Assembly: GCF_013141865.1 (NCBI RefSeq)
Contig: NZ_RCST01000001.1
Location: 4,092,001-4,156,000 of the forward strand
DNA length: 64,000 nucleotides
Direction: 5' to 3'
DNA from: Methylomonas sp. ZR1
GTDB taxonomy: Bacteria > Pseudomonadota > Gammaproteobacteria > Methylococcales > Methylomonadaceae
In this document: in pieces, positions 15,019 through 32,329 of the stretch
Position numbering within the stretch: the first letter of the stretch is position 1
Layout of the letters: each line of letters begins with the position of its first letter
Position numbers and translations under genes: made by a program
The notes under the pieces: generated by a model
Database searches by the model: none
Told to the model about the DNA's origin: nothing
Seen by the model: only the letters and a program-made list of their open reading frames with translations

Positions 15019-15462
15019 CTAGTCGCCATCCGGCTCGACAATGCGTATCGGCCGATCCCCAATCTTTATCCCGGTGACCTCATCCACAAGCACCGGTCTG
15101 ATTTCCGCCCCCGTTTCGGCATCCAAGATGCGCACCAGTTGGCCCTCGCCACGATATTGACGTCCCCAGGCACCCATCGTGAACAGCACCGGCAGAAAAT
15201 CGCGGCCTGCGGCAGTCAACACATACTCCTCGCGCGGCGGGCGCTCCGAATAAAGTCTTTTTTCCAACAATCCTTCTTCCGTTAGCGTCGTCAATCTTCG
15301 GGTCAGGATCGCGGGTCCGATACCCAGATTTTTCCGAAACTGGTCAAAGCGGGTGAGGCCGAAATGGGCGTCCCGCAGAATCAAAAGACTCCATGCGTCG
15401 CCCAGAAAAGCCAAGCAGCGCGCGATTGGACAAGGGTCATCACAAATATTTTTATCGTTCAT
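15019..15462 (-). CDS. HxlR/MarR-like winged-helix transcriptional regulator
   Basis: The 147-residue protein has the HxlR layout: an N-terminal Cys-Pro (DDPCPIARCL, Cys11, with Cys7 before it), the recognition region LTRFDQFRKNLGIGPAILTRRL and the wing LLEKRLYSERPPREEYVLT. HxlR proteins such as YodB and HypR sense electrophiles or oxidants through this N-terminal Cys and often control quinone or aldehyde reductases. It is transcribed away from a run of SDR/MDR oxidoreductase genes. The start at 15462 gives the family N-terminus; an in-frame ATG at 15546 would run through the putative operator. Confidence 0.88.
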   Translation of the reverse strand: MNDKNICDDPCPIARCLAFLGDAWSLLILRDAHFGLTRFDQFRKNLGIGPAILTRRLTTLTEEGLLEKRLYSERPPREEYVLTAAGRDFLPVLFTMGAWGRQYRGEGQLVRILDAETGAEIRPVLVDEVTGIKIGDRPIRIVEPDGD

Positions 15463-15470
15463 ACAATTTT

Positions 15471-15521
15471 GGTAGTGACTTGATTTCAAATTGGTAGTAA
15501 CATGACTACCGAAATGATAGT
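15471..15521. promoter_or_regulatory. Candidate HxlR operator in the divergent promoter region
   Basis: GGTAGT occurs at 15471 and 15493 and GATAGT at 15516, spaced 22-23 bases (about two helical turns). The middle copy is half of a perfect inverted repeat GGTAGT-N6-ACTACC at 15493-15510. The cluster lies between the HxlR start and the SDR start, as expected for an autoregulated operator. Confidence 0.55.
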
Positions 15522-15566
15522 AACACTTAGATGATAGACAATCCACCCCGCAAGGAGATTTGAGTT

Positions 15567-16412
15567 ATGAGTATTAAGCAAAATATTAGTGTCGCGCTGG
15601 TTACCGGCGCATCGTCGGGCATCGGCGAAGCAACCGCTCTGCGACTGACCGCGGCTGGCTACAAGGTCTATGGAACCAGCAGACGGGGCGCCGTCCAAAC
15701 GGGTCAACGTTCTTTTCAGATGCTGTCTCTCGACGTGACTAGCGATGCCTCCGTCGAAGCCGCCGTTAGCGAGGTGATACAACGGGAAGGCCGCATTGAC
15801 CTGCTTGTGAACAACGCAGGCTTCGGGGTTGCGCCTGCTGGCGCGGAAGAAAGTTCGATCGAACAGTCCCAGTCGGTTTTCGATACGAACTTTTTCGGTA
15901 TCGTCCGCATGACTCGCGCCGTTACACCCCATATGCGGCGCCAAGGCAGCGGTCGTATCATCAACATCGGCTCCGTGCTTGGCGTATTGCCGATGCCGTA
16001 TATGGCCATTTATGCCGCGAGTAAGCACGCGATCGAAGGCTATTCGGAATCGCTAGACCACGAGTTGCGTACCAGAGGCATCCGAGTCTCCGTCATCGAG
16101 CCCGCATACACAAAAACGAAGTTTGACGCGAACCTACTGGCGCCCGATTCGCAGCTTGAGGAGTATCACGAAACCCGCGCGGCCTTGGACAAGGTGCTGG
16201 AGGAAGTGATGGCGATTGCCGACGAGCCGAAAGTCGTGGCCGATGTTGTGCTGAAAGCAGCCAGAGCGGCTCGCCCGAAGCTCCGATATACCGCCGGCGG
16301 TCTCGCTAAGCGCTTGAGCTTACTGCGCAGATTTGCGCCTGCTCGCATGGTGGACGCAGGGCTCCGAAAAGATCTGCGGCTCGACGCAATAAAAAAACCA
16401 CAACTGTCATGA
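15567..16412 (+). CDS. Short-chain dehydrogenase/reductase
   Basis: A classical SDR of 281 residues: cofactor motif TGASSGIG at 13-20, NNAG in LLVNNAGFG, and catalytic Tyr149 with Lys153 in YAASK. AAGGAG stands upstream of the ATG. It is divergent from the HxlR gene, with a repeat-containing promoter region between them, and is probably its regulatory target. The stop overlaps the start of a degraded medium-chain reductase fragment (ATGA), indicating that the original operon continued into that gene. Substrate unknown; carbonyl or quinone detoxification is an inference from the regulator. Confidence 0.88.
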   Translation: MSIKQNISVALVTGASSGIGEATALRLTAAGYKVYGTSRRGAVQTGQRSFQMLSLDVTSDASVEAAVSEVIQREGRIDLLVNNAGFGVAPAGAEESSIEQSQSVFDTNFFGIVRMTRAVTPHMRRQGSGRIINIGSVLGVLPMPYMAIYAASKHAIEGYSESLDHELRTRGIRVSVIEPAYTKTKFDANLLAPDSQLEEYHETRAALDKVLEEVMAIADEPKVVADVVLKAARAARPKLRYTAGGLAKRLSLLRRFAPARMVDAGLRKDLRLDAIKKPQLS

Positions 16413-16535
16413 AGGCGTTTGTCGTCCAGCGTTATGGAAACAAAGTCGCATGACGGATAAGCGAAATATCCGAGCCCAAACTGGTCAATATCGAAGTACT
16501 GGTCCAGGTGCATGCCGTCGACGAACGTCCCCTAG
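16409..16535 (+). pseudogene. Degraded N-terminus of an MDR-type NADPH:quinone/zinc-less reductase
   Basis: The ATG overlaps the SDR stop by four bases. Translation gives MKAFVVQRYGNKVA, then a TGA stop, then RISEISEPK and EVLVQVHAVDE in the same frame, which matches the start of medium-chain NADP-dependent reductases (compare MKALTFKRYGK in the next gene). After about 42 codons the similarity ends. It is therefore a broken remnant with an internal stop and a large 3' deletion. Confidence 0.75.
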
Positions 16536-16609
16536 CCTGCGCCACGACTGCTTCCGCTCTATGCGAATCAACAACGATTTAGCCTGAACTTAGCAACAAG
16601 GAATTTTTT

Positions 16610-17557
16610 GTGAATAGCACCTTAACTATGAAAGCACTGACTTTCAAACGCTACGGCAAGTCGCCCGAGATCGGTTTTTCCGACATTTCTCGTCCCACAC
16701 CGAAGGCTGACGAACTGCTGGTAAAAGTCCACGCCGCGGGCCTGAACCCGATCGACAACATGATTCCAACGGGGATGTTCAAACCGGTCCTGCATTTCCA
16801 GTTGCCGGCTACGCTGGGTAGCGATCTTGCCGGGGTGGTGGTTGAGGTCGGCAGCCGCGTAACGCGCTTTAAGCCCGGCGATGCCGTCTTCGCCAGTATC
16901 TTCGATCTTGGCAAAGGATCGCTTGCCGAATTCGCGGTGGTGCCGGAGAGCGCCGCCGCGCTGAAGGAACGCGCCAATCTTCGGGCCGGCCAAAAGATTT
17001 TCATCCCGGCGGGATCGGGCGGGATCGGCACGTTTGCGATCCAGTTGGCAAAGCACCTTGGCGCCACGGTGGGAACCACCACCAGCACCGGCAACGTTGA
17101 ACTGGTGCGCAGCCTGGGTGCGGACGAAGTTGTCGATTACAAGAAGCAAGATTTCGAGAAAGTGCTGGGCGGCTACGATGCGGTGCTTGGCACGCTCAAA
17201 GGGGCCGAGCTCGAGAAATCGGTCGGCATCCTCAAGCCGGGAAGCAAGATCGTCTCTCTGATCGGGCCGCTGGATGCGGCGTTCGCGGATGCCAAGCGCT
17301 TGAATTTTTTCCTCAGGTTAGTATTCGGGCTGATGAGCCGCAAGATCATGAGGCTTGCCAGAAAACGGGCAGTCACTTACTCATTTCTGTTCGTGCGTCC
17401 CGATGGCGATCAACTCGGCGAAATCGGCAAACTCCTCGAAGCCGAGCGTATCAAGCCTGTGATCGACAAGGTGTTTCCGTTCGAGAAAGCCAAAGATGCG
17501 CTTGCCTACCTCGCCCAGGGACGTTCGAAGGGGAAAGTCGTCGTCAAGATGCTGTGA
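16610..17557 (+). CDS. NADP-dependent medium-chain oxidoreductase (quinone reductase-like)
   Basis: The 315-residue protein has the GroES-like N-terminal domain (HAAGLNPIDNMI) and a Rossmann domain with AGSGGIGTFAIQLAK, then the SLGADEVVDYK-type segment. No zinc-binding Cys cluster is seen, so it belongs to the zinc-independent MDR branch that reduces quinones, enones or similar. The GTG at 16610 has AAGGAA upstream; an ATG at 16628 giving MKALTFKRYG is an alternative start. It follows a broken paralogue, suggesting tandem replacement within the HxlR-linked cluster. Confidence 0.88.
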   Translation: MNSTLTMKALTFKRYGKSPEIGFSDISRPTPKADELLVKVHAAGLNPIDNMIPTGMFKPVLHFQLPATLGSDLAGVVVEVGSRVTRFKPGDAVFASIFDLGKGSLAEFAVVPESAAALKERANLRAGQKIFIPAGSGGIGTFAIQLAKHLGATVGTTTSTGNVELVRSLGADEVVDYKKQDFEKVLGGYDAVLGTLKGAELEKSVGILKPGSKIVSLIGPLDAAFADAKRLNFFLRLVFGLMSRKIMRLARKRAVTYSFLFVRPDGDQLGEIGKLLEAERIKPVIDKVFPFEKAKDALAYLAQGRSKGKVVVKML

Positions 17558-17611
17558 ACAAAAGACAACCCAAGCTCCACATTTTTCAAACACTTCCAAA
17601 GGTAAAAAACC

Positions 17612-18409
17612 ATGACTTCATCAAAAAAAATCGCTGTTGTAACAGGTGCTTCTTCCGGCATCGGATCAGTTTACGCCGATCGTCTAGCTCAGCGCGGATA
17701 CGACCTTTTGCTGGTCGCCCGGCGCGGCGACCGCTTGCAAAATCTCGCGGCCAAACTAGAGCGGGCTTATGGCATCAAGGCCGAAACGCGGATGGCTAAT
17801 CTTGAGAACGAAACAGATCTCGCGGGTCTTGAAGCCGTTCTCGCTGCCGATCCCGCCATCAGTCTATTGGTCAACAATGCCGGCATTGCCAGACTCAGCC
17901 CGGTGGCTGAAGCGCCAGTGAAAGACTCCTTGTCGCAGATCGCGTTGAATATCACGGCGCTGACGCGATTGACGCATGCCGTGCTGCCTGCGTTCAAGGC
18001 GCGCAACGAAGGTGTCATTATCAATATCGCCTCGGTATTGGCTGTTCATACGTTTCCGGTGAGCTCGGTATACAGCGGCACAAAAGCGTTCGTGCTCAAT
18101 TTCAGTCGCGGGCTACAGCAAGAACTGGCAAATACTGGGATTAGAGTGCAAGTGGTGTTGCCTTCCGCCACAGCCACCGAACTTTGGGATACCGCCGGGA
18201 TGCCACTGACCGCGTTTCCAGAAGAAGCGGTGATGACTACCGAGCATCTTGTCGATGCCGCGCTGGCTGGTTTCGACCAAGGCGAGCTGGTCACCTGGCC
18301 CTCCCTGGCTGACGCCGGGCACTGGGACCGATACGACGCTCAACGGACAGAACTCTTCGCGGCGACGCAAACCGGCCAGTCCGCGCCACGTCTAGCGACG
18401 CCGTCCTGA
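17612..18409 (+). CDS. Short-chain dehydrogenase/reductase
   Basis: A second SDR of 265 residues with VVTGASSGIG near the N-terminus, LLVNNAGIA, and catalytic Tyr154 and Lys158 in YSGTK. The internal pattern LLLVARRGDRLQNLAAKL is that of the YqjQ/DltE-like classical SDRs. It lies 54 bases after the MDR gene on the same strand and is probably part of the same HxlR-associated unit. Substrate not assigned. Confidence 0.87.
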   Translation: MTSSKKIAVVTGASSGIGSVYADRLAQRGYDLLLVARRGDRLQNLAAKLERAYGIKAETRMANLENETDLAGLEAVLAADPAISLLVNNAGIARLSPVAEAPVKDSLSQIALNITALTRLTHAVLPAFKARNEGVIINIASVLAVHTFPVSSVYSGTKAFVLNFSRGLQQELANTGIRVQVVLPSATATELWDTAGMPLTAFPEEAVMTTEHLVDAALAGFDQGELVTWPSLADAGHWDRYDAQRTELFAATQTGQSAPRLATPS

Positions 18410-18756
18410 TTGTTTTCCATGTGAATAACATGCGCCGTTTTTTGATAACGCCACAGACCACTATAAATCGCATCTGGAAAGGCACGGGGCTGGTTGGCGT
18501 ATGACAGACATTCTTCACAGATACAGGTAGGCTGAGCAACGAGTCGTTAGTCGCGCGGATTACCAAACAATCCGCGCCTAGCGGCGAGTTTCTATATCGC
18601 CATTAAACTTCATTAATTTATTACCAGGCGATTTTTAAAAATTTAGCATGCACCGTTGTTTCATGACAATTTTTACTCAAACTCCAGCGAACAAAGAATG
18701 AATGCAGAATTTTTATTGGGCGCCATAATGTAGCGTTTGATTTATATTGATTAAAA
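18410..18756. other. AT-rich intergenic region with a hairpin, ahead of the TetR gene
   Basis: These 347 bases hold no convincing gene. A perfect 9-bp stem with a seven-base loop at 18553-18577 (GCGCGGATT/AATCCGCGC) may terminate the upstream operon. The last ~150 bases are clearly AT-rich and presumably carry the TetR promoter. Confidence 0.55.
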
Positions 18757-19326
18757 ATGTCAAATAAAACTCAGGATAAAATTTTAGCCGCTACGACTCA
18801 TCTTTTTAATGAGCAAGGCATTCGCGCAACCGGAATAGATGGTATTTTGAAAGAAGCTGGAGTGTCTAAAATGAGTCTTTATAAATATTTTTCATCGAAA
18901 AATGACTTAATCGTTGCCTATCTTCTGCGTCAGGAAGCATTATTCATGTCCCGATACGAAAACATAGCCGTCGAAATGATTGATCCGAAAAATAAGTTAT
19001 TGGCGATGCTGGATGTTTATAATGATTTAATTCAAAGTGGAGAGTTCAAAGGCAGTCCGTTTTTGAATGCGCTTTCAGAATTTCCAATTAAGGACGATCC
19101 TGTGCATCAAGCGGCGATCAGGATAATTCATAATTTTTGGACGCATATACTAAACCTCGCCAATCAATGCGGGGTAAGTCAGCCAAAAAAATTAGCATCA
19201 CAAATTGCCATGTTAATGCATGGCTCAATACTATTTTCTCAAACGAGCTGCAATTCAGATTATATAGCTAACGCCAAAGAACTAGTTTATTCCCATCTGG
19301 ATTGCCTTGCTACGAATCAGCCATAA
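18757..19326 (+). CDS. TetR/AcrR family transcriptional regulator
   Basis: Residues 5-60 form a TetR HTH domain (ILAATTHLFNEQGIRATGIDGI, then SKMSLYKYFSSKNDLI). The C-terminal ligand domain is helical and not diagnostic. The gene is noticeably more AT-rich than its left-hand neighbours. Its target is not evident: it faces convergently the DUF1993 gene and follows the SDR cluster after 347 bases. Confidence 0.88.
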   Translation: MSNKTQDKILAATTHLFNEQGIRATGIDGILKEAGVSKMSLYKYFSSKNDLIVAYLLRQEALFMSRYENIAVEMIDPKNKLLAMLDVYNDLIQSGEFKGSPFLNALSEFPIKDDPVHQAAIRIIHNFWTHILNLANQCGVSQPKKLASQIAMLMHGSILFSQTSCNSDYIANAKELVYSHLDCLATNQP

Positions 19327-19447: not shown

Positions 19448-19954
19448 TTAATCCACGCCCAAAAAATCCGATTTCCCTAATTCAACCCCGTTGTGGCGAA
19501 GTATCGCGTAGCTCATCGTGATGTGGAAATAAAAATTTGGCAAGACAAAATCTAACAAGTATGGAAGACCGACAAAGTTTTTCTCGGTGCCGCCAATCTT
19601 GAAATTAATAGCAAGGTTCTCATTGCCATTTATTTGCGCCGGGGTTACATCTTGGATAAAAGCGATGGTTTTGGATATACGAGCCTGCAAATCGGCAAAT
19701 GTGGTTTCATTGTCTTCGTAGCATGGAATCTCTAATCCCGCCAGGCGCGCGGCACAGCCTTTAACCATATCTGTTGCAATTTGCACTTGTTTGCTGAGCG
19801 GAAACATATCGGGGGCCAAACGGTAATTTATAAAGACCGATTGATCAATGTTTTTCGCTTCGGAATGGATTGCTGCTTTATCTAGTATTTTTGATAAATT
19901 GCCCAGCATTTTGATAAAAACTAATATTGACGCTTGATACATGTCGATTGACAT
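19448..19954 (-). CDS. DUF1993 family protein
   Basis: The 168-residue protein resembles DUF1993 members: MYQASILVFIKMLGNLSKIL at the start, a central LAPDMFPLSKQV and C-terminal FYFHITMSYAILRHNGVELGKSDF. The family is predicted to have a DinB-like helical bundle; its function is unknown. It lies 64 bases downstream of the tautomerase on the same strand and may be the last gene of the extended pxm locus. Confidence 0.8.
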   Translation of the reverse strand: MSIDMYQASILVFIKMLGNLSKILDKAAIHSEAKNIDQSVFINYRLAPDMFPLSKQVQIATDMVKGCAARLAGLEIPCYEDNETTFADLQARISKTIAFIQDVTPAQINGNENLAINFKIGGTEKNFVGLPYLLDFVLPNFYFHITMSYAILRHNGVELGKSDFLGVD

Positions 19955-20018
19955 AATAACCCCCTATTTTTAAAAACATTTAATCAGATTAATGAAACGC
20001 AGAAGCATTGACCGCTTA

Positions 20019-20399
20019 TTACGCATACTGCGCAATGCCATTCCCAAACGACCAATTTTCCTTTTTGACTTCAACTAGACTTATTAAGACATCTTCTCTG
20101 CGTATATCTAGCTGATTATGCAGGGTATCGGCTATGTTTTTATAAAGTGATTTCTTTAAATCGACACCTCTGCCTTCATTCAAGGTTATTTGGATAAAGA
20201 TGACGCCATCGCTTCGATGTATACCAAGATAATTGGAATCATAAATTAAAGAATTATTATCATGCTCGGTAATAACCTGAAAACAATCTTTTTCGGGTAC
20301 GCTGATGGTATGCACCATTTCCTGGTGAACGATTTTGCCAATCTTTCTCCCGAACTCTTTACTTTCTTGTTTCATTAACGATATTCGAACTAAAGGCAT
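20019..20399 (-). CDS. Tautomerase superfamily protein (4-oxalocrotonate tautomerase-like)
   Basis: The protein begins MPLVRISL, so removal of Met exposes Pro1, the catalytic base of the superfamily. At 126 residues it matches the longer YusQ-like/MSAD-like members made of two fused beta-alpha-beta units; the second starts around GVIFIQITLNEGRGVDLKK. The natural substrate is unknown. It is 20 bases behind the MFS gene and has GGAGG upstream, so it is likely in the same transcript. Confidence 0.83.
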   Translation of the reverse strand: MPLVRISLMKQESKEFGRKIGKIVHQEMVHTISVPEKDCFQVITEHDNNSLIYDSNYLGIHRSDGVIFIQITLNEGRGVDLKKSLYKNIADTLHNQLDIRREDVLISLVEVKKENWSFGNGIAQYA

Positions 20400-20419
20400 G
20401 TTATTCCTCCAAAATTAAG

Positions 20420-21682
20420 TTAAAACCGAACAGTTTGCGGTTCTCTGATAAAAAGAACGATGCCGGTTGCGACAAAAGCGAATAGGCCTGACGCCACAAA
20501 AGCCAGGTGGTAGTCACCCATCAGACTATGGACGTACCCGGCGCTGTAGGCGGCAATGGCCGCGCCGATTTGATGAGCGAAGCAAATCCAGCCGAACACC
20601 ACACCAACGTTTTGTTTTCCGAACAAATCGGCGGTCAAGGCCGAGGTTGCCGGAATCGTGGACAACCAATTCATGCCGTAAATAATCGAGAAAATCATTA
20701 ATTGTCCGGTGCTATCGATGCTGGGCAGTACTATCAGCGTCGCGCCTCTGACGACGTAATAAAACGCCAGCGGCCAACGCTTGCCGTACCGGTCGCATAA
20801 CCAACCGGATAAAATGGTGCCGAACACATCGGCCGCGCCCATGACGCCTAAGGACATGGCCATGGTCATTTCGGTGAAGCCGTGTTCGATGCCGTGCGGA
20901 ATCAAATGCGTCTGAAAAAGCCCGGAGGTGGTTAAACCACAAATGCCAAAACTCGAAGCCAACAACCAGAATTGCGGACTGCTCATGGCCGAGCGCATGG
21001 GATTTTGATCAGGCTTAAGCACTGCTCCATGAACGCCATGGTCGCCATAGGCCGACAGGCCTTTTGATTCGGGATCGTCTCTTAAAAATTTCAGCACCAA
21101 CGGTAGAGCCACCAGGCCTAAGCCTACGGCGATAAACAGCGTCGCCGCACGCCAGCCTTCATGCACATTGATCTGCATTAACACTGGGGTGAACACCAAC
21201 TGACCGGAGGAGAAGGCTGCCCCCAATATGCCTAATGCCAGCCCCCGGTGTTTATGAAACCAACGATTGATCAACGTCGAGCCCATAATCATGGACGTGC
21301 CGCCCGACCCTGCGCCTATCAGCAATCCCCAAAGCAAATACAGCTGCCAGGATTCCTGCATAAAAACGCTGCCACCGGCACCTGCCACCGACAAAATCAA
21401 GGTAATAACGCTGATCCGTTTAGCGCCGTAGACATCCATCAACCGGCCTAGAAAGGGGCCGGCAAGGCCAAATAACAGCAAATTTAGTGAGATGGCGCCG
21501 CTAATGGTTTCCCGGTTCCAGGCAAACTCCTGTTCCAGGGACAGCATGATGATCCCTGGAACGGAGCGCAGTGCCGATGCCATAAACAAGCATAAAAACG
21601 TCACCGCGAGTACGATCCAGGCATAATGAACTGAATCAGTTTGACTCTTTGGCATGGCGACATCGGACTTGGACTGAAACAT
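20420..21682 (-). CDS. MFS transporter (OxlT/monocarboxylate-like)
   Basis: A 420-residue protein with about twelve hydrophobic segments. The first half has a typical major-facilitator loop (FLGRLMDVYGAKR) and MGSTLINRWFHKHRGLALGI, the latter resembling the oxalate:formate antiporter/monocarboxylate-transporter branch. An internal start at 21655 (MPKSQTD) is possible. It begins 28 bases after the pxmC stop, so it probably travels on the pxm transcript. Export or uptake of a small organic acid linked to pXMO activity is only an inference. Confidence 0.88.
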   Translation of the reverse strand: MFQSKSDVAMPKSQTDSVHYAWIVLAVTFLCLFMASALRSVPGIIMLSLEQEFAWNRETISGAISLNLLLFGLAGPFLGRLMDVYGAKRISVITLILSVAGAGGSVFMQESWQLYLLWGLLIGAGSGGTSMIMGSTLINRWFHKHRGLALGILGAAFSSGQLVFTPVLMQINVHEGWRAATLFIAVGLGLVALPLVLKFLRDDPESKGLSAYGDHGVHGAVLKPDQNPMRSAMSSPQFWLLASSFGICGLTTSGLFQTHLIPHGIEHGFTEMTMAMSLGVMGAADVFGTILSGWLCDRYGKRWPLAFYYVVRGATLIVLPSIDSTGQLMIFSIIYGMNWLSTIPATSALTADLFGKQNVGVVFGWICFAHQIGAAIAAYSAGYVHSLMGDYHLAFVASGLFAFVATGIVLFIREPQTVRF

Positions 21683-21710
21683 GGTCTTTTGGGTTTATTT
21701 GAAAACAGAC

Positions 21711-22484
21711 CTATTCAGCGTCTTCGATTTTTTCCATGAGTTCGATCAGTCGAGTCACGCCTTGCAGCAGGATGCCGCCGACGCCCAAGGCAAACCAAAC
21801 CCCGATCACAAAGCCCCAATGAATCGGCGCGGCGAAGAATTCCTCTCTAAACCAGAAGGTATGTCCCCATTCGTTGAAGCCGACGCTGACCAAGATCATG
21901 AACGGCCCGAACACCGCCAGGGTCAAAGGCAAGGAGATGCCTTTGGCGTACAAGGGCAAGCGGGTTCTAGCATACAACCAGGCGCAGCCGCCCAGGATCA
22001 CGTACAGCGGGAAGTTGAAGTAAAACTCGATGATGTGATTAGCGGTAAACGGCGTATCGCGGATCGCCACCTGATGCCAGGAATTGTCCTGTTCGGCAAA
22101 ATAACTGCCCGCCCAGTACACCGCAAAGGTGTAAATGCTGATCCACATCGTCAAGGTGAAATAGCGGCGGATTTCTTCCTTGGGTGCCAGTTGCTCCAGA
22201 TTCCGGTCGCGTGTGGTCCATAAGTAACCCCAAAAGCCGCTGGCGACGGCAGCGATCACCACCAGTTCGATATAAAACAGCCGCATCCAGTATTGTTCGA
22301 ACGCCGGCTCCGAGGAATCCAAACCGTGTGCTATGGCAAAAGCACCCTGATACAGGCGTAAACTGATGTACATAACGGTTAAAAAGCCAAAGCCTTTTAA
22401 ATATTTGGGTAAGTCGGTCAAATACCAAGGCAATGATTTCGGGTTTTCGGTGCTTAAGCGCACGTGTTCTGTCGTGGTAGCCAT
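21711..22484 (-). CDS. pxmC: Particulate monooxygenase subunit C of pXMO
   Basis: The 257-residue membrane protein matches PmoC/AmoC from end to end (WGYLWTTRDRN, HIIEFYFNFPLYVILGG, GFNEWGHTFW). The metal ligands known from Methylococcus PmoC (Asp156, His160, His173) are all conserved as Asp133 and His137 in EQDNSWH and His150 in TANH, with identical spacing. It is the last of three subunit genes, placing C after A and B, the reverse of canonical pmoCAB. Sixteen bases separate it from pxmB. Confidence 0.95.
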   Translation of the reverse strand: MATTTEHVRLSTENPKSLPWYLTDLPKYLKGFGFLTVMYISLRLYQGAFAIAHGLDSSEPAFEQYWMRLFYIELVVIAAVASGFWGYLWTTRDRNLEQLAPKEEIRRYFTLTMWISIYTFAVYWAGSYFAEQDNSWHQVAIRDTPFTANHIIEFYFNFPLYVILGGCAWLYARTRLPLYAKGISLPLTLAVFGPFMILVSVGFNEWGHTFWFREEFFAAPIHWGFVIGVWFALGVGGILLQGVTRLIELMEKIEDAE

Positions 22485-22500
22485 GATGTGTGCTCCTGAA

Positions 22501-23739
22501 TTAATTGAATTTGGGAATGACGGCGGCGGAAATGCTGGAGATATAGCGTTTACCCATCACGTCGTCGTAAAGAAACAGCAGGCCACCCAGCCGGCTGTCC
22601 GCATCTTTGATCAGCCCATCCAGTTTTTCCGATTCCCAGGCCGCATCGCGCACTTCAACCGTGACGGTGCGCTGTTCGCCGGGCGCGATGGGCGCGTTGT
22701 CACTCAGGCTCATACCGTTATTACTGACGTCATCCTTGCCGGGTTTGCTGTTGACATTCGCTAAGTCAGCGTTTATGAAATGCACGTTGGAACTGGAAAA
22801 TTCGCCGATCCTAACCGCGCCTTGGCTGCGATTGTCGATACTGAACTGCAACAGCATCGCGCGTTGCGCCACGTTGTATTCGGCTTTTAGGGTGTCGACA
22901 TTGACCAGTCCGGCATTGACTTGCGCCGGCAGAGGCAAAATCCTATCCAAGCCCGCTTGTAATGGGATGGCGTCCGGGTACTGGTTGGCGGTAACGGCAT
23001 TCAGCGCCAATACCAATACCGGCACGCCCACTAACACGGCCTTGGCGATGGTTTTGTCCTGATCGGTGATCAACTCATGCTCCAAACCGGCATCCAGCAT
23101 GCGGTAGCGGCTGATGAACAACGGCCGACGCACCCACCACAACAACCAGGCAGCCGCCAACGCGCCCCAGAACAGATGCCAGAACACGCCATTGGCAAAG
23201 CCGAAGCTTTCCATGTCGATCATTTCACCGTTGATGGTTTGAATGGTATTGCTAAAGTCCGCGGGATCGCCGCCAATGTCCAGCCACACCCCAGGCCCCA
23301 TCACCTGACCGGCGTCTTTTAAATTAAAAAACGGATGGATGTGATAATGGCCCGGCAAGCGGCCTTTCATGACCACCTTGAACTCGTAATCGCCGCCCGG
23401 CTCCAGCGATACCGAGTTAGTCCAGGGCTTACCGTTCAGGTAGCGTTCGGTACGAATCAGCACCGGTCCTGGGGTGGAGATATTCAAGAAGCTGGCTTCC
23501 GGTTTCGGCACACTGATCGGCCAATCTTCGGCAACATGAAACTTGCCGCTGACGCTGACTTCATCGTTGACGTTGAATGTTTGCGTGGACCATTGCACGT
23601 CGTACCACTGGATGGTCCGCATCCTGATGAATGGCTCCAGGGCTTTTTCGCCATGGGCCTGCGCGGTGGGTACGGCAAATATCGACAATACGTTGATGCA
23701 AAGCACTGCCAACAGCCAAGGTTTAAAAAGTAATTTCAT
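22501..23739 (-). CDS. pxmB: Particulate monooxygenase subunit B of pXMO
   Basis: A 412-residue periplasmic cupredoxin-type subunit anchored by two helices. A signal peptide should be cut after AQA at 28, exposing His29, equivalent to the N-terminal His33 copper ligand of Methylococcus PmoB. His133 and His135 in GHYHIHPF match His137 and His139, so the CuB site is complete. The bis-His partner His48 of Methylococcus is replaced by Gln44 (TIQWYD), while His72 is kept as His68. The C-terminus carries the second cupredoxin domain. It lies 11 bases after pxmA. Confidence 0.95.
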   Translation of the reverse strand: MKLLFKPWLLAVLCINVLSIFAVPTAQAHGEKALEPFIRMRTIQWYDVQWSTQTFNVNDEVSVSGKFHVAEDWPISVPKPEASFLNISTPGPVLIRTERYLNGKPWTNSVSLEPGGDYEFKVVMKGRLPGHYHIHPFFNLKDAGQVMGPGVWLDIGGDPADFSNTIQTINGEMIDMESFGFANGVFWHLFWGALAAAWLLWWVRRPLFISRYRMLDAGLEHELITDQDKTIAKAVLVGVPVLVLALNAVTANQYPDAIPLQAGLDRILPLPAQVNAGLVNVDTLKAEYNVAQRAMLLQFSIDNRSQGAVRIGEFSSSNVHFINADLANVNSKPGKDDVSNNGMSLSDNAPIAPGEQRTVTVEVRDAAWESEKLDGLIKDADSRLGGLLFLYDDVMGKRYISSISAAVIPKFN

Positions 23740-23750
23740 GACTGTGCTCC

Positions 23751-24503
23751 TTAAATGCTTTTCAGATAACGGGTATCAGCGAACAATTTGCCGATTTTCC
23801 ACCACAGCGGATACATCAACGAGCACAACAACGCTGAACAAAATGCTGACAATGGCGTGGCGTACTGGCCATAGGTGCGCAAGGTGCCGCGTTCGATGAT
23901 GCGCAGGTATTCGGGCATGCCGGTGCGTATGTATTGGAAGCCAAACACGTCGGCCACCGAAAGCTGGCTATTGTGATAATCGACCGCTTGATGGAACATA
24001 CCGAAAATCGGCCAGTTGGTGGGGTAAAACAACAAGGCAAATGCAGCTCCACCAAAAATGGAGGTGATGGTCAGGCTATTGGTCAGCATCAACAAGGTGT
24101 CCAATACCAAGGCACCCGGCACCATGGTCGCTGGCAGCACCATGTTGATGGGGAAGAAGTTCCAGTAGTGGTAGGCAAACACACGGGTGACCCAGGTGCC
24201 GAGCAATAAGGCCGCGACGCACAGCGTGGCGCCCAAGGGCAGGCGGAATTTATCCCACAACACCGCCTGTACGGCGGCTGGAAAGGTAATACCGATCAAC
24301 GGCGTCACCAAAGGCCACCATTGCCGATCTTTCCAATCGACCCAGAAGTCCCAGTCGCCGACGGTCAGGGCAAAATGTAGATGGAACGAGCCGATGAATA
24401 AGAATAGGGCCAGCACCAGGATCAGATAATCGTAAGCCCTGGCTAACCGGGCTTTTTCGCCCCGATAAGGTTTGAATGTTGAAATTGGAATTTGTGCAGA
24501 CAT
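23751..24503 (-). CDS. pxmA: Particulate monooxygenase subunit A of pXMO
   Basis: This 250-residue integral membrane subunit aligns with PmoA/AmoA: LTVGDWDFWVDWKDRQWWP, then TFPAAVQAVLWDKFRLPLGA, a PINMVLPATMVPGALVLD helix, and IRTGMPEYLRIIERGTLRT near the C-terminus. It differs from methanotroph PmoA at many positions and is the first gene of the set, as in pxmABC of Methylomonas, Methylobacter and relatives. The upstream region is shared with a divergent LysR gene. Which hydrocarbon or ammonia it oxidises is unknown; pXMO has been linked to hypoxia and denitrification in Methylomonas. Confidence 0.94.
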   Translation of the reverse strand: MSAQIPISTFKPYRGEKARLARAYDYLILVLALFLFIGSFHLHFALTVGDWDFWVDWKDRQWWPLVTPLIGITFPAAVQAVLWDKFRLPLGATLCVAALLLGTWVTRVFAYHYWNFFPINMVLPATMVPGALVLDTLLMLTNSLTITSIFGGAAFALLFYPTNWPIFGMFHQAVDYHNSQLSVADVFGFQYIRTGMPEYLRIIERGTLRTYGQYATPLSAFCSALLCSLMYPLWWKIGKLFADTRYLKSI

Positions 24504-24656
24504 GGTAAGAATCCCCCGATATAGGTTTCAGTAAACGGCAATCGCCATTGAGTTTTGGGCGCGCCGCCAACCGAAAAGCTACCCTTGGGGGGAGTTAAAC
24601 CTTCTAGGCTTGGACGACGCGCTCGGGGTATAAGGTAGGGAGAAACGGCTTGGCTG

Positions 24657-24674
24657 TGAAATGGTGAAATTTCA
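24657..24674. promoter_or_regulatory. Inverted repeat in the pxmA-LysR divergent region
   Basis: A perfect TGAAAT-N6-ATTTCA palindrome lies 79 bases before the LysR start and 153 bases before pxmA. Position and symmetry fit a LysR-type or other dimeric operator. There is no direct evidence of binding. Confidence 0.45.
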
Positions 24675-24753
24675 TCCGCTACCATCAAGACTGTTCATAC
24701 CGGCCAGCAGCGATTTTGATTAGTATGCAGCCGATTTTTTTGAGGAACTCAGG

Positions 24754-25689
24754 ATGGCTAACCTACGCACTTTCGACTTAAACCTGTTACTGGCGTTCGA
24801 TGTTTTGATGCGGGAGCGCAATGTCACTCGCGCGGCGGAATGCATGTTCGTTACGCAGTCGGCGATGAGTCATACCTTGCATCGCTTACGCCAGCAACTG
24901 AACGATCCGGTCTTGGTTAAATCGCCCGCCGGTATGCAGCCGACCGCGCTGGCGCTGGCCTTGGTGGAACCGGTACGCAGTCTGTTACAGGAAATGGAAC
25001 GCTTGCTTGAAGCACCTCAAGCCTTCGATCCGGCCTCCAGTCAGCGCCGCTTCACCATCGCCGCGACCGATTACATGGAGTTTTTGATCTTGCCCGAGTT
25101 GTCGCAATTGATTGAGCAAACCGCGCCGGGCGTGGATATTCATGTCAAACGCACGGAATCTGCTTTTCCGTTGGCGCAGCTGGAAAACGGTAGTCTGGAT
25201 GTGGTGTTGGGCTTTGCCTCGGTACTGAATCCACCGGCGCATTTGTACTGCGAACATTTATTCATGGATCGCATGGCTTGCGTGGTCAGGCGGGATCATC
25301 CCAGCATTCAAGCCGCGCCATCGCTGGAGGACTATTTGGCGGCGACGCACATGCTGATCTCCCGAACCGGCGATAAATTAGGCGTGATAGACGAGAAGCT
25401 CGCCGAGTTGAATTTAGAGCGACGGATTAATTTCATCGTGCCGCATTTTCTATCGGCACCGTTGATCGTGACCCAGACCCATATGATTTTGTCTTTGCCT
25501 TATCGCTTGGCCATCGCCTTTCAGAAACTGGTGCCGCTGCAAGTATTGCCGGTGCCGGTAAGTTTGCCGGACTACGATTTGGCGATGATTTGGCACCCGT
25601 TATGGGAAAAAGACCCGGCCCATGGTTGGTTGCGCGAACAAATCAACGCCATAGGCCGGAAAATTGCCGAGAGTGAAATTCGGCTTTAA
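24754..25689 (+). CDS. LysR family transcriptional regulator, divergent from pxmABC
   Basis: The 311-residue protein has the LysR HTH (residues about 8-67: LRTFDLNLLLAFDVLMRER, AMSHTLHRLR, DPVLVK) and a NodD/NahR/LinR-like substrate-binding domain starting near residue 92. The N-terminal layout is that of the NahR/NodD branch. It is transcribed away from pxmA with 250 bases between and is therefore the likely local regulator (inference). Its stop overlaps the stop of the convergent secreted protein by four bases. Confidence 0.9.
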   Translation: MANLRTFDLNLLLAFDVLMRERNVTRAAECMFVTQSAMSHTLHRLRQQLNDPVLVKSPAGMQPTALALALVEPVRSLLQEMERLLEAPQAFDPASSQRRFTIAATDYMEFLILPELSQLIEQTAPGVDIHVKRTESAFPLAQLENGSLDVVLGFASVLNPPAHLYCEHLFMDRMACVVRRDHPSIQAAPSLEDYLAATHMLISRTGDKLGVIDEKLAELNLERRINFIVPHFLSAPLIVTQTHMILSLPYRLAIAFQKLVPLQVLPVPVSLPDYDLAMIWHPLWEKDPAHGWLREQINAIGRKIAESEIRL

Positions 25690-26780
25690 CGTCCCGGCAG
25701 GCCTGCGGCCAAGGCTTTGACCTTTAACAGGAAGTAAGGCGGTTTGGATTGATTATCGCCGCCGTTCAGTGTGGCCGAGCGATGCAAGCGATTCACTACC
25801 GCATAGAGTTGGCCGTTAGCGCCAAAACTGAAGGAATCGACCCATGACAGCCGCGGACATTGCGCCAATTGCCGGTATTGTCGGTTAGGCGCGATCACGC
25901 CAATCGCGTTATTGGCTAAATCCCCCAGATAAATATTGTTGTTTTCATCAATGCTGATGCCATCCGAAATCGGTTTGTCGCTGTAGCGTTCAACATGCTG
26001 AGCAAGTTCTTGCGGCGTTAAGGCCTCGTTGATCAAGTCGGTAGCTTTGATCCGGTAAAGGCTAAGGCCGTGCATCGGCCCGAAATAGACCCACTCATTG
26101 GCTAAATCCTCGGTAATCGGATTCACGCCAATATGCGGTTTCACCAATTCGCCGGACGGCGTTTTCACCTGAATCGGCACATTATCGATGACTAAATCGA
26201 CGTTTTCCGGCACCACACTTTTATGTCCTTCCAGCACCCGCCGCGCCGCGCCGGTGGACAAGTTGACCACGATCAAGCCGGCATTCGCGCCACCTGCCGG
26301 ATCGCTGATGAAGGCATGATTGTGTTTGATGTCCAACGCAAAATCATTGACGAACGCATCTTTCGGCGCAATCGGCGCCGGCAGATAAATCAAACGCTGG
26401 AGCTTGTTGGTTTTGGTATTCCAGCCGACCAGTTTGGGCGTCACCCCGCTACGCATGCCGTTGTCCAGCATCCAGACGATACCGTTGCTATCGGAGCGGA
26501 TACCCAGCACCGAGTCGAGTTTGATCGGCGCAGTTGAATCGGCCGCCGACATTTCCTTATTCGGAAAAGGTAGCAAGGCTTGATCCTTGTATTCCACCAC
26601 CGTGTATTGCGGCTGATAAAACTGATGCTGGCTCATGATGATCCGGCCGTTGGCGGTCGCCGTGACATTGCCGGGCCCGGTATCGAGGTTGGCGAATACA
26701 TCAAAATGAGAGTTGCCATCCGCCAAAGCCTCAAAGGCTGCAAACACCATGGCGGTGCAAAATAGGATTCCACGGTTCAT
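25686..26780 (-). CDS. Secreted yellow/major royal jelly-like beta-propeller protein
   Basis: The 364-residue protein has a signal peptide ending near ALA at 19-21 and a six-bladed propeller-like sequence typical of the bacterial major-royal-jelly/yellow and SMP-30-like group, often annotated as L-dopachrome tautomerase-related: NDFALDIKHNHAFISDPAGG, YFGPMHGLSLYRI, SDGISIDENNNIYLGDL, WVDSFSFGANGQLYAV. It is predicted to be periplasmic. It ends tail-to-tail with the LysR gene. The bacterial function is unknown. Confidence 0.82.
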   Translation of the reverse strand: MNRGILFCTAMVFAAFEALADGNSHFDVFANLDTGPGNVTATANGRIIMSQHQFYQPQYTVVEYKDQALLPFPNKEMSAADSTAPIKLDSVLGIRSDSNGIVWMLDNGMRSGVTPKLVGWNTKTNKLQRLIYLPAPIAPKDAFVNDFALDIKHNHAFISDPAGGANAGLIVVNLSTGAARRVLEGHKSVVPENVDLVIDNVPIQVKTPSGELVKPHIGVNPITEDLANEWVYFGPMHGLSLYRIKATDLINEALTPQELAQHVERYSDKPISDGISIDENNNIYLGDLANNAIGVIAPNRQYRQLAQCPRLSWVDSFSFGANGQLYAVVNRLHRSATLNGGDNQSKPPYFLLKVKALAAGLPGR

Positions 26781-27137
26781 TATTATCTCCAGTAAGTTGT
26801 TGGGTTAGGCAACACCATACTGGATCGTTAGAGCCCTGTTAAATGACATCCATTCATCACGAACCATTCAGTACATTGATGATGATTGGCGTATTCAATT
26901 TTGGAAACACAGCGACAGCGAGGTGAAGACTTTTAGTCCTAGATCGCCGCAGCGCCAAGTCGAGGGAGAATCTAAGCTAAACCCCTGGTTAGAGCGGAAT
27001 AATGTGACACGGGTGCCGTTCGAGCTGAGCCCGTCGAAGCCCAGGCTGGCGCCCCCTTCGATAGACTCAAGGCGAATGGTATTTAGGGGGCGAGTTAATA
27101 ATAACTCCCAGAAAAACGCCGTATTTGAATTTCTCCA
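26781..27137. other. Intergenic region with a dispersed imperfect inverted repeat
   Basis: No gene was found in these 357 bases. At about 27016-27088 there is CCGTTCGAGCTGAG...GTCGAAG followed by an inverted, diverged copy (CCCTTCGATAGACTCAAGGCGAATGG), the form of a common proteobacterial dispersed palindromic repeat. The remainder is the promoter region of the upstream minus-strand gene. Confidence 0.5.
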
Positions 27138-28463: not shown

Positions 28464-29889
<1,426 letters not shown>

Positions 29890-31074
29890 TGATCTGACAG
29901 TTACCGTTTTTGCGGGGTGTCTGTCAGATTAGATTTGGTTCAGATTTTTTTGAGCCCAAATCTGTTTTCCATCCAGCAAGGTATCCATCGGCGTTCTGCC
30001 GTTGCACATTTTGCCCTGATGAGTTCGGTCATTGTTGTAATAAACCAGCCATTCGTCCAGATCTTTTTGGAGTTCATCCAGGTCGCTATAGAGCTTTTTG
30101 CGGAACGTGACCTGATAGAACTCCTGCAAGATGGTCTTGTGGAAGCGTTCGCAAATCCCATTGGTTTGCGGCGACATGGCCTTGGTTTTGGTATGGTCGA
30201 TGTCGTTGATCGCCAGGTATAGCTGATAATCATGCTGTTCGACCTTGCCACAATATTCGGTGCCGCGATCCGTCAGAATGCGTAGCACAGGTAATGCATT
30301 GGCTTCATAGAACGGCAATACTTTGTCATTCAGGATGTCCGCGGCAGTAATCGGCGTTTTGGTGGTGTACAGTTTGCAGTGAGCGACTTTGCTGTAGGTG
30401 TCCACGTAAGTCTGCTGGTAAATCCGCCCAACCCCTTTGAGGTTGCCAACGTAAAAGGTATCCTGCGAACCCAGGTAACCGGGATACCCACAGGGCACAA
30501 GTGGGCTGTTTCGATTTCGCCGCAGGCTTGATCATCCTGCTGCTTTTTCTCCAACGCCGCAATCTGCGCATCGCTCAGCATTAACCCTTCGGCGGCTACC
30601 TTGGCTTCCAGCGCTTTAAGCCTCTTTTTAAAGTTCTCCAGGTCATGCCGTAACCAGATAGAGCGAACGCCGCTGCCGGATACGAATACCCCTTGTTTAC
30701 GCAGTTCATTACTGGTTCGATGCTGTCCATGCGCCGGATACTCAACCGCATAGGACTTCACCGCCCGTTCAATGCTTTCATCGACGCGATTCTTCAGATT
30801 CGGAGACCGGCGTTTTTTGTCGATTAAGGCATCAATGCCACCTTCGGCCACAAGCTCTTGATAACGATAAAATGTATCGCGCGAGACACCCATCACCTTG
30901 CAGGCTCTGGAGACGTTATTCAGTTCTTGGGCTAAATTTAACAGCCCCGCTTTGTGTTTAATGATCGGATTGTTTGTATGGATCATGAGAGTTACCTTTT
31001 GTGTTTTGTGTAAGGATTCGACACCCCTATCAAAACCGGTAACTCTCATCTTTTCAAGTCGATGTGTCAGATCA
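29890..31074 (-). mobile_element. IS481-like insertion sequence, inactivated
   Basis: Candidate ends are the inverted ten-mers TGATCTGACA (29890-29899) and TGTCAGATCA (31065-31074). A second inverted pair, AGTTACCGTTTTTGCGGGGTGTC near 29899-29921 and its diverged counterpart near 31020-31045, lies inside them, so the true ends are uncertain by about 30 bases. The element carries one transposase gene broken by a frameshift. Confidence 0.6.
29929..30986 (-). pseudogene. IS481-like transposase, frameshifted
   Basis: The N-terminal part (from 30986: HTH-type region SRACKVMGVSRDTFYRYQELV, then IDALIDKKRRSPNLKNRV) runs in one frame to GEIETAH at about 30510. The integrase core (GYLGSQDTFYVGNLKGVG, ILTDRGTEYCG, SPQTNGICERFHKT, YYNNDRTHQGK) continues in another frame to 29929. 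Between them about 17 extra bases (TTGTGCCCTGTGGGTAT) separate sequences that would join as AH-PGYLG. The DDE residues appear intact in the second part, so the break is probably a small insertion. Confidence 0.8.
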
Positions 31075-31174
31075 AGTCGTGACTAATACAGTTTAGCGCA
31101 GTTCCCTGGCGCGTTGAATTAGACGACTACTCAAAACCAATGGAGTCTGGCCCCCATTGGTTTCTACACACCGA

Positions 31175-31451
31175 TTATTTTTCCTTTTGTACCTCGGCAG
31201 GCGCCTTGTTCTCCGCGGGCACTACCGCCTCAGTCGGCACTTGTGCCTCAGCTGCCTTTTTTGCCTCTCTCTGCCGCCTTTTTTGCCAGCGCGGCCTTCT
31301 GATCAGCAGCCTGTCTTGCAGCTACCGACCCGGTTTCTGCCGCAGCCAATAACATTACTGTGTCTGCCTGGGTTGGCACTGGAGTTAACAGTACTGATAG
31401 TGTGCAAAGACATACCACCAATCCTCTTTCTTTTGATTTAATACTCAACAT
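31175..31451 (-). pseudogene. Small secreted Ala/Lys-rich protein with frameshift
   Basis: From 31451 the ORF encodes a signal peptide (VVCLCTLSVLLTPVPTQA) and an Ala/Lys-rich tail, and stops at 31248 after 67 residues. Two extra bases in a GAGAGAGG tract shift the frame. In the alternative frame the KAAE-type repeat pattern continues (AAEAQVPTEAVVPAE, then VQKEK) to a stop at 31175. AGCGAGG lies upstream of the ATG. It may be a recently broken gene or one that switches by slippage. Confidence 0.45.
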
Positions 31452-31479
31452 AACGACCTCGCTGTAATAGTTATTCTAG

Positions 31480-32329
31480 GGGCTGTTGCCGTTTTACATG
31501 GGTAACCAAATAAAAGCGCAGGCCAAAGCGACAACGCCTTCAAAATTGCGTTTCAATTTGTCATATCGCGTCGCGATGGCTCTGAAATGTTTCAATCGCG
31601 CAAAGACATTTTCAACGAGGTGGCGATATTGGTAGAGGCACCAATCCATTCCGTCATTCCCGACGATTGAATTTTGTTTTCTAGGAATGATAGGGACACT
31701 CCCTTTCTCTCGAATTTGAATCCGTAGAGGTTCACTGTCATAGCCTTTGTCAGCGACCGTGTAGTCAGCCAAAGGCAGTTTAGCCACTAATTCCGGCGCT
31801 TCTTTGCAGTCATGGACTTCACCACCGGTGATTGAGAAATGAATAGGCAGCCCACAGGCATCAACGGCCATATGGATTTTCGTGGTGTTACCCGCAACGG
31901 ATTTCCCAATCGCGGCATCCTGTTCATGAGCCGCACCGCTACTATGCTGATGCGCTTTCACGATACTGCCGTCAATAAAGGTCCATTCCAAATCCGGTGC
32001 CACAACCAGGCCTCGAAAGATGCCCATCAGTTTTTCTTGCAGTGACCACGCATTAAACCGTTTGTAGACTGCATTCCACTTACCAAACGTGGCAGGCAGG
32101 TCTCGCCAGGGGCAGCCGACTCGCATGCGATAAAAAATCCCTTCTACCGTTTGCCTGAGCGAAGGCTTGTCATAAATCCCCAGGCTTAACAGGATGGCTT
32201 TGAATTTATTCCAGTATGCATCCGTAAACATTTGTCGCGGCATAGCTCACTTGTCTTCTGATTGAAAAATCAATCAATGAGGCAGAGCCGTTCGATTTCA
32301 AGGCTATCGTTTCAAAATGGCAACAGCCC
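31480..32329 (-). mobile_element. Complete IS5-family insertion sequence
   Basis: The ends are GGGCTGTTGCC at 31480 and its inverted copy GGCAACAGCCC ending at 32329, giving 850 bases. The element is flanked by a direct repeat CTAG (31476-31479 and 32330-32333), the YTAR-type four-base target site of IS5 elements. The right end lies 20 bases beyond the flanking CTAG from the glmS stop. An older partial copy of the left end is at 14958. Confidence 0.92.
31494..32243 (-). CDS. IS5 family transposase
   Basis: A single 249-residue ORF with the DDE transposase_11/DUF4096 layout: an N-terminal helical region (SLRQTVEGIFYRMRVGCPWRDLP), the first Asp in FIDGSIVKAHQ, the second in VADKGYDSE and the Glu region in HLVENVFARLK. 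It appears uninterrupted and is framed by intact inverted repeats, so the element could be active. Confidence 0.93.
   Translation of the reverse strand: MPRQMFTDAYWNKFKAILLSLGIYDKPSLRQTVEGIFYRMRVGCPWRDLPATFGKWNAVYKRFNAWSLQEKLMGIFRGLVVAPDLEWTFIDGSIVKAHQHSSGAAHEQDAAIGKSVAGNTTKIHMAVDACGLPIHFSITGGEVHDCKEAPELVAKLPLADYTVADKGYDSEPLRIQIREKGSVPIIPRKQNSIVGNDGMDWCLYQYRHLVENVFARLKHFRAIATRYDKLKRNFEGVVALACAFIWLPM

Follow-up and report, generated by a model that had tools for sequence, protein, structure and literature searches.

A putative two-promoter LysR regulon joins the pxmABC genes and an MRJP-family gene in Methylomonas sp. ZR1

Introduction

What the copper membrane monooxygenase (CuMMO) called pXMO does in methanotrophs is the question raised by a pxm locus in a 64,000-nt stretch of Methylomonas sp. 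ZR1 DNA (contig NZ_RCST01000001.1, positions 4,092,001 to 4,156,000; hereafter the window, in whose coordinates positions are given). pXMO and its genes, pxmABC, were reportedly described by Tavormina et al. in 2011. In individual passages of papers, which is how all papers given by PMC number are cited here, its substrate or function is called unknown (PMC4594100, PMC8630023, PMC12662621), and pxm is often counted as a gene of low-oxygen methane oxidation (PMC7285482, PMC11218250). Judged from conserved sequence, the locus very probably comprises a regulon in which a LysR-type regulator acts on two putative promoters, one of the pxm unit and one of a gene for a major royal jelly protein (MRJP)-family protein. 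The genes, found as open reading frames (ORFs) and assigned through Pfam, are as follows.

23751-24503, minus strand: pxmA, CuMMO subunit A of the pxm1 lineage (ORF; Pfam AMO, 7.5e-117)
22501-23739, minus strand: pxmB (ORF; Pfam Monooxygenase_B)
21711-22484, minus strand: pxmC (ORF; Pfam AmoC)
20420-21682, minus strand: major facilitator superfamily (MFS) transporter (ORF; Pfam MFS_1)
20019-20399, minus strand: tautomerase (ORF; Pfam Tautomerase_2)
19448-19954, minus strand: DUF1993 protein, final gene of the run (ORF; Pfam DUF1993)
24754-25689, plus strand: LysR-type regulator, divergent from pxmA (ORF; Pfam HTH_1 and LysR_substrate)
25686-26780, minus strand: MRJP-family protein (ORF; Pfam MRJP, PF03022)

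The pxm locus and the identity of pXMO

Within the run, the intergenic gaps are 11 nt (pxmA-pxmB), 16 nt (pxmB-pxmC), 28 nt (pxmC-MFS), 20 nt (MFS-tautomerase) and 64 nt (tautomerase-DUF1993); LysR and pxmA are separated by 250 nt, and the 3′ ends of the LysR and MRJP genes overlap by 4 nt. An initial annotation of this DNA had given the gaps of 28, 20 and 64 nt, the common strand and the divergence of LysR from pxmA, and the ORF list agrees with it to the base. The interval that it marked out does hold the genes that it named, but ends at 26780, the start of the MRJP ORF, which its text omits.

An alignment of six PxmA sequences was used to scan the named genome collection, and the best 80 of the 197 relatives found were kept. 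There are 52 pxm1 loci (L062-L111, L115 and the window), 45 gammaproteobacterial and seven alphaproteobacterial; L112 and L113 belong to a lineage called pxm2, L114 and L116 to pxm3, and L117-L141, from ammonia-oxidizing bacteria and others, were used only for the tree and the copper-ligand alignments. In a quick PxmA tree of 87 rows, pxm1 forms one clade of 51 rows, apart from PmoA and AmoA, with a support of 96 in the SH-like approximate likelihood ratio test (SH-aLRT); it takes in copies from Methylomonas (including LW13), Methylobacter (M. tundripaludum), Crenothrix, Methyloglobulus and Methylocystis (M. rosea). The same tree holds two more PxmA lineages, pxm2 (4 rows) and pxm3 (2 rows), and on a long branch of their own the AmoA/PmoA-like genes of two gammaproteobacterial metagenome-assembled genomes (MAGs; L118 and L119), 52-53% identical to PxmA. 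Although the NCBIfam models for bacterial ammonia monooxygenase (AMO) score the three subunit proteins of the window above cut-off, the tree and the gene order, A-B-C, identify the enzyme as pXMO and not AMO, so that the first assignment, made on the order and on divergence, stands.

The genome itself has three PmoA-like matches, namely the window copy, a pxm2 copy (65%) and PmoA (47%). The pxm2 copy lies in a second pXMO-like operon (L059; contig C1, about 2904246-2904971), which has a TetR-type gene and a pxmC-like remnant upstream; its A gene carries an in-frame TAA, whereas G031 and G028, two further genomes from the genus, have copies that no stop interrupts. The copper ligands of pxm1, counted in rows long enough to align, are fully kept: the three PmoB-type histidines of PxmB (His29, His133 and His135) in 48 of 48, with Gln at the position of PmoB His48, and PxmC D133, H137, H150 and N204, H208, H222, presumably the CuC and the CuD site, respectively, in 46 of 46.

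Putative LysR boxes at two promoters

LysR-type sites are paired, show partial dyad symmetry and are of the T-N11-A type. Putative sites of this description, paired and near a -35-like hexamer, lie upstream of both pxmA and the MRJP gene:

24684-24698, minus strand: putative LysR box 1 at pxmA, ATGAACAGTCTTGAT (sequence and conservation)
24655-24675, minus strand: putative LysR box 2 at pxmA, ATGAAATTTCACCATTTCACA (conservation; perfect match of the genome pattern)
24660-24655, minus strand: -35-like hexamer of pxmA, TTCACA (the end of box 2)
24632-24637, minus strand: -10-like hexamer of pxmA, TACCTT (17 nt past the -35-like hexamer; 3 of 6 to consensus)
26866-26880, minus strand: putative LysR box 1 at MRJP, ATCAATGTACTGAAT (weak, 1.6 bits)
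26837-26857, minus strand: putative LysR box 2 at MRJP, ATGAATGGATGTCATTTAACA (two-box model; perfect match of the genome pattern)
26842-26837, minus strand: -35-like hexamer of MRJP, TTAACA (the end of box 2; listed by the promoter scan)
26814-26819, minus strand: -10-like hexamer of MRJP, TATGGT (17 nt past the -35-like hexamer; 9 of 12 overall)

On the pxmA side, 53 of 58 loci yielded a LysR-pxmA gap, and an alignment was made of the 48 gaps shorter than 420 nt. Common to them are two blocks separated by about two helical turns; the second is near ATGAANNNNNNNCATTTMACA and ends in a -35-like TTMACA, which in the relatives read by eye is followed after 17 nt by a -10-like hexamer. Single-locus matches to the 24-mer of the window score 15-24, and shuffled gaps reach 16 in 3 of 960 cases and never more. 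With a 48-column model built on 22 gammaproteobacterial loci, the best site of the whole locus falls in the LysR-pxmA gap, at the equivalent place, in all six alphaproteobacterial loci scanned.

The MRJP-side box of the window lies about 78 nt before the gene. A two-box model, built on the gammaproteobacterial pxm gaps with both observed spacings allowed, was run in 400-nt segments over the 42 loci in which the MRJP start could be read; the segment preceding MRJP was the best outside the masked pxm gap in 33 of them (0.57 expected), some Methylomonas loci among the 33 being identical copies. These sites mostly lie 72-84 nt before the start, and 134-135 nt in L088 and L089; in L064, L079, L090 and L110, the pre-MRJP segment is beaten by one segment only, the unmasked pxm gap. 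In the 5.18-Mb genome, the box pattern ATKAAWNNNNNNCATTTMACA has two perfect matches, which are the pxmA and MRJP sites, and its backward control has none. One mismatch admits six further sites, several of them within reading frames, and only L166 has a positive box-1 score. A simple promoter scan performs at chance level (11 sites against 13.1 expected, standard deviation 3.6), so that it cannot decide on internal promoters; it lists the MRJP promoter and omits that of pxmA with its TACCTT. Since conserved putative boxes precede both pxmA and MRJP, LysR most likely controls both units.

Some of the box results speak against so general a regulon. The weakest loci, alphaproteobacterial ones included, lie at the edge of the shuffled range when taken singly. 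In four other loci, the 48-column model, whose boxes are 21 nt apart, finds its top match in the pxm gap (L093), just before MRJP (L092) or elsewhere (L062 and L066, where the boxes are 23 nt apart). Among the 33 loci named above, the leading two-box score is negative in L100 and L109, and with this model no MRJP-side box stood out in the alphaproteobacterial loci L094, L099 and L115 or in the pxm3 loci L114 and L116.

Conservation of the pxm neighbours

Neighbours were called by tblastn and ORF clustering. LysR is found at 49 of the 52 pxm1 loci; L084 and L101 are truncated immediately ahead of pxmA, and L081 is without it there. MRJP accompanies 45 of the 52, counting L095, where it is cut by the contig end, and five of the seven misses are contig ends (L075, L080, L084, L101 and L107), only L081 and L104 being without it there. 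The MFS gene is intact at 34 of the 45 gammaproteobacterial loci; seven of the other eleven end before it, L105 has it in pieces, and L090, L091 and L093 are without it. Extra genes or longer gaps come between the partners in, for example, L079, L090, L096, L098, L105 and L111, L102 has MRJP in inverted orientation, and L108 has a rearranged block. As an internal control, every neighbour family other than A, B, C, LysR, MRJP, MFS and tautomerase occurs in at most 6 of 58 loci. Linkage to pxm exceeds chance for LysR, MRJP, MFS and, where it is present, tautomerase, and MRJP is the closest partner of pxm1. The initial annotation had proposed to compare gene order around pxmABC and had staked its reading on the neighbours being conserved there; LysR and MFS are kept far beyond the genus, and tautomerase bears out the expectation where it is present, but DUF1993 is not kept as a rule.

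Co-occurrence was counted in 237 genomes of the family with E-value cut-offs of 1e-87 for pxmA (all three lineages), 1e-30 for MRJP, 1e-60 for MFS and 1e-15 each for tautomerase and DUF1993. Matches were found in 54 genomes for pxmA, 61 for MRJP, 57 for MFS, 12 for tautomerase and 107 for DUF1993. MRJP and pxmA occur together in 50 genomes, pxmA alone in 4, MRJP alone in 11 and neither in 172, and the corresponding numbers for MFS and pxmA are 48, 6, 9 and 174; Fisher values for such tables count related genomes as independent observations and serve for description only. The four genomes with pxmA but not MRJP (L147-L150) are represented by contigs of 3-6.5 kb that end before MRJP. The eleven with MRJP alone comprise two distant homologues (31-33%), four fragments, two genes broken along with the rest of the locus (G181, G246), a contig that ends in LysR (G029, L155), an intact MRJP gene without pxm (G110), and G063 (L142, 2260-6900), in which MRJP, a shortened LysR and MFS surround unrelated ORFs at the position of pxmABC. 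By eye, these ORFs encode a DNA methylase-like and a leucine-rich-repeat protein. In L143 and L144, MRJP and pxm have decayed together; at the decaying locus L143, pxmA was not found, pxmB is shortened and MRJP split, and LysR, pxmC and MFS are still readable. In all 12 genomes that have tautomerase, one copy adjoins MFS or pxm: in G089 it stands beside MFS on a contig other than that of pxmA, and in G120, where pxmA gave no match, it adjoins the end of MFS on a truncated contig (L151). A further, partial match in G128 lies at the edge of a contig and could not be placed.

The other two lineages differ in their company. At both pxm3 loci, MRJP precedes pxmA by 55-57 nt and shares its strand, a TetR-type gene diverges, and neither an MFS gene nor a LysR gene between MRJP and pxmA was found at these two loci. 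pxm3 was considered as a further LysR target and rejected, as no box stood out at L114 or L116. On one contig, L114 (1536-9038) carries a pxm3 operon (MRJP-pxmABC-CMD-like), genes for a short-chain dehydrogenase/reductase (SDR) and a DUF1993 protein, and then the LysR-pxmA start of a pxm1 operon. A small protein that weakly resembles peroxidase-related/CMD proteins occurs in six loci; the two copies tested stayed below the NCBIfam cut-off and gave no Pfam match.

The MRJP-family protein

The window protein scores 54 bits against Pfam PF03022, whose cut-off is 19.8. An AlphaFold2 model from a 20-row alignment is a six-bladed beta-propeller with a predicted local distance difference test (pLDDT) score of 84.8 and a predicted template modelling (pTM) score of 0.86; by eye, a signal-like helix, modelled with low confidence, spans residues 8-22 at the N-terminus. 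The top Foldseek match is 2qe8, a putative hydrolase from Anabaena variabilis (TM score 0.87, 53% identity), and further matches are royal jelly protein 1, an SMP-30-like putative lactonase and a mosquito dopachrome conversion enzyme. Eight residues are invariant in the 20 MRJP rows (H52, N145, D146, D273, G274, W313, D315 and H333), and because all of them recur in 2qe8, a shared active site is suggested.

Tautomerase, MFS transporter and alphaproteobacterial gene sets

The tautomerase has as its nearest solved relative the FG41 malonate semialdehyde decarboxylase (MSAD; 3MJZ), at 75 bits, and Pro1 (after Met), Asp37 and Arg76 are present in all 14 pxm-linked copies. In alphaproteobacteria (Methylocystis, a Methylocapsa MAG and a Methylocystaceae MAG), the genes run MRJP-LysR-pxmABC-tautomerase-enolase-superfamily enzyme. 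Tautomerase directly follows pxmC, and a mandelate-racemase-like gene follows it in turn, at six of the seven loci (L094, L095, L099, L100, L103 and L109); the seventh, L115, ends inside pxmA. The enolase-superfamily protein (Pfam MR_MLE) has 3ugv as its nearest match, followed by mandelate racemase. The alphaproteobacterial copies group with gammaproteobacterial L092/L093 in the trees of LysR (SH-aLRT 100), PxmC (98), PxmA (92) and PxmB (84). In the MRJP tree they do not form one clade with these two, and starred branches leave the grouping possible. The grouping fits, but does not prove, a transfer of the whole unit.

The transporter is related over most of its length to the lactate transporter SfMCT (6G9X), its nearest solved relative; its NCBIfam score, 141 bits, falls short of the cut-off of 320. 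Arg280 in transmembrane helix 8 (TM8) of SfMCT, which we take to be the substrate-binding Arg, is replaced by Thr289, so that the TM8 Arg by which members of the SfMCT/OFA group are recognized is missing, and the transporter is not classed with that group. The MFS gene as a sign of a plain monocarboxylate was therefore rejected; such a substrate is not implied when the equivalent of Arg280 is Thr289. DUF1993 was likewise rejected as a general marker of the pathway, since of the 107 genomes that have it among the 237, it lies within 10 kb of pxmA in about eight (coordinates read by eye). The initial annotation had taken these neighbours, if co-transcribed, as a hint of a small organic acid or unsaturated carboxylate. 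The linkage of tautomerase and the racemase-like neighbour in alphaproteobacteria strengthen the case for an organic pathway, but the hint is weakened in that DUF1993 is mostly unlinked and the transporter is without the Arg.

Proposed function and alternatives

Taken as a whole, the locus is best explained, with slightly better than even likelihood, as a LysR-controlled regulon around pXMO that acts on a small organic compound. In such a regulon, LysR, whose gene lies between the two putative target promoters, those of pxmABC-MFS(-tautomerase-DUF1993) and of MRJP, would switch both on when a small organic molecule is bound. pXMO would hydroxylate a small organic compound, either in place of methane or in addition to it; MRJP, probably in the periplasm, would work on the product or the substrate as an isomerase or hydrolase, and MFS would carry the compound across the membrane. 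Optional isomerases (tautomerase and, in alphaproteobacteria, also the mandelate-racemase-like enzyme) and oxidoreductases would process an enolisable carbonyl or hydroxy-acid intermediate; tautomerase, the racemase-like enzyme, SDR, zinc alcohol dehydrogenase (Zn-ADH) and CMD-like extras may indeed suit carbonyl or hydroxy-acid chemistry. That the substrate of pXMO is a non-methane organic compound is possible, if somewhat short of an even chance, and more tentative is the full proposal that methane oxidation is not the main task of pXMO in pxm1 and pxm3 and that the enzyme starts an inducible pathway for an oxygenated or unsaturated organic compound with MRJP as its second, periplasmic enzyme, the pair being under LysR in pxm1 and probably under TetR in pxm3.

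A number of findings pull the other way. The extra enzymes vary between loci, tautomerase being present at 14 of the 52 pxm1 loci and the racemase-like gene only in alphaproteobacteria, so that no fixed pathway emerges. The MRJP family is broader than methanotrophs and includes a cyanobacterial protein, and the transporter has Thr289, with Asp285, at the Arg280 position in 34 of 34 copies. At five pxm2 loci, in stretches of 3-17 kb of which one is cut, no relative of MRJP, LysR or MFS was found. The co-occurrence p values are not valid probabilities, because many loci are close relatives or identical.

pXMO may instead serve as a reserve monooxygenase for methane (or ammonia) when conditions are hypoxic and denitrifying, with LysR sensing a metabolite of redox or nitrogen stress and with MFS, tautomerase and oxidoreductases exporting or detoxifying reactive by-products, an explanation that we regard as less likely than not but as a serious competitor. 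It agrees with the retention of the copper ligands of particulate methane monooxygenase (pMMO), and the accessory HxlR, SDR and Zn-ADH genes resemble an electrophile defence. The expression and genome data in the literature, which count against an organic substrate, also favour it: nitrite together with hypoxia raises pxmA transcript levels in M. album BG8, and the same source cites a rise during denitrification for FJG1 (PMC4594100), a MAG from Lake Kinneret reportedly carries pxmABC but lacks pmoCAB (PMC11218250), and authors commonly treat pXMO as a methane enzyme (PMC6215863, PMC7285482). However, a methane enzyme leaves unexplained both the secreted-looking propeller that recurs in gammaproteobacterial pxm1, alphaproteobacterial pxm1 and pxm3 and the racemase-like and tautomerase genes of the alphaproteobacteria. 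A regulator for hypoxia or nitrite, moreover, would more often be FNR- or NsrR-like than of the LysR type.

Improbable, by comparison, is a periplasmic role of MRJP as a partner in the assembly, copper loading or docking of pXMO, with the substrate chemistry unrelated. The PmoB-type copper site is periplasmic, and MRJP accompanies pxm3, where LysR does not separate it from pxmA and MFS was not found; but its closest solved relative, the cyanobacterial putative hydrolase, shares the eight invariant residues, which suggests a common active site and not a new role in binding, and no MRJP lies near pxm2 in the stretches examined. That the neighbours are passengers, kept by common ancestry and slow rearrangement without functional meaning, was already disfavoured and is hardly credible. 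DUF1993 mostly behaves in this way, many loci come from a single genus, and pxm2 does without the partners, but passengers would not account for a unit whose flanking genes are not conserved, whose own genes stay together through insertions and inversions (e.g., L079, L090, L102 and L105) and in alphaproteobacteria, and whose LysR, PxmC, PxmA and PxmB trees all join the alphaproteobacterial loci with L092/L093. The joint decay of MRJP and pxm, and the box before MRJP, which points to a common regulator, argue in the same direction. The LysR-controlled organic pathway leaves two narrower questions, to which a regulator with two putative promoter sites and a secreted-looking partner lead: which compound induces LysR, and what does MRJP convert? 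If the substrate is organic, pxm should cease to be taken as a sign of methane oxidation.

Other features of the window

15019-19326, strand mixed or unstated: accessory cluster of HxlR, SDR, Zn-ADH, SDR and TetR genes (Pfam)

Relatives of some of these genes are present elsewhere around pxm in L062, L064, L096, L098 and L111; a functional tie of the cluster to pxm is a guess. The locus is bordered at 28464-32243 by an IS110-type transposase gene (28464-29525, Pfam) and further transposase-like ORFs, the latter recognized by eye, and two ATP synthase alpha/beta-type genes at 36126-39958 are perhaps part of an extra ATP synthase operon. Within the 64 kb, Rfam gave no match at gathering scores and no tRNA was found.

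Comparison with known systems

The locus shares with published pXMO the A-B-C order, the clade apart from PmoCAB/AmoCAB and the distribution over gammaproteobacterial and some alphaproteobacterial methanotrophs. Published accounts, in the passages cited, treat the three subunits and pxmA transcripts, and not MRJP, LysR boxes or MFS, tautomerase and racemase neighbours (PMC6215863, PMC4594100). None of the passages drawn from the literature searched (including PMC3404531) gives an account of the pxm neighbourhood, though one may be found in Tavormina et al. (2011) or in Kits et al. (2015), the latter on FJG1. pXMO itself is already known; the putative two-promoter LysR regulon appears to be the new result.

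Several products of the locus have solved relatives with which they can be compared singly. 2QE8 (Ava_4197 of Anabaena variabilis) has the same six-bladed propeller and is 53% identical to the MRJP protein of the window, and we know of no CuMMO context for it. FG41 MSAD has Pro1, Asp37, Arg76 and a WSFG motif aligned with the tautomerase, which is nevertheless not classed as an MSAD; the score is only 75 bits, and no haloacrylate pathway was seen. SfMCT is the best solved relative of the transporter and differs from all 34 copies in its Arg280, while mandelate racemase (1MDL) and 3UGV are the nearest enolase-superfamily relatives of the alphaproteobacterial neighbour gene, which is not in the window.

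As a whole system, the locus has a parallel in pmoCAB3 (PMO3) of Methylacidiphilum, a divergent pMMO that is an acetone monooxygenase and was recognized as such via its gene cluster (PMC8630023). That cluster has its own features, namely the order C-A-B, pmoD, and neighbours for lactate dehydrogenase, GMC oxidoreductase, lactoylglutathione lyase and PEP synthase, and in the passage cited no MRJP or LysR is listed (PMC8630023). Neither GMC oxidoreductase, lactate dehydrogenase and glyoxalase nor pmoD is among the recurring pxm neighbours or the named genes of the window. What the two would have in common is a divergent copper membrane monooxygenase placed among enzymes for an oxygenated organic compound (PMC8630023); by this analogy, the pxm locus may work like the pmoCAB3 cluster without being a member of that type.

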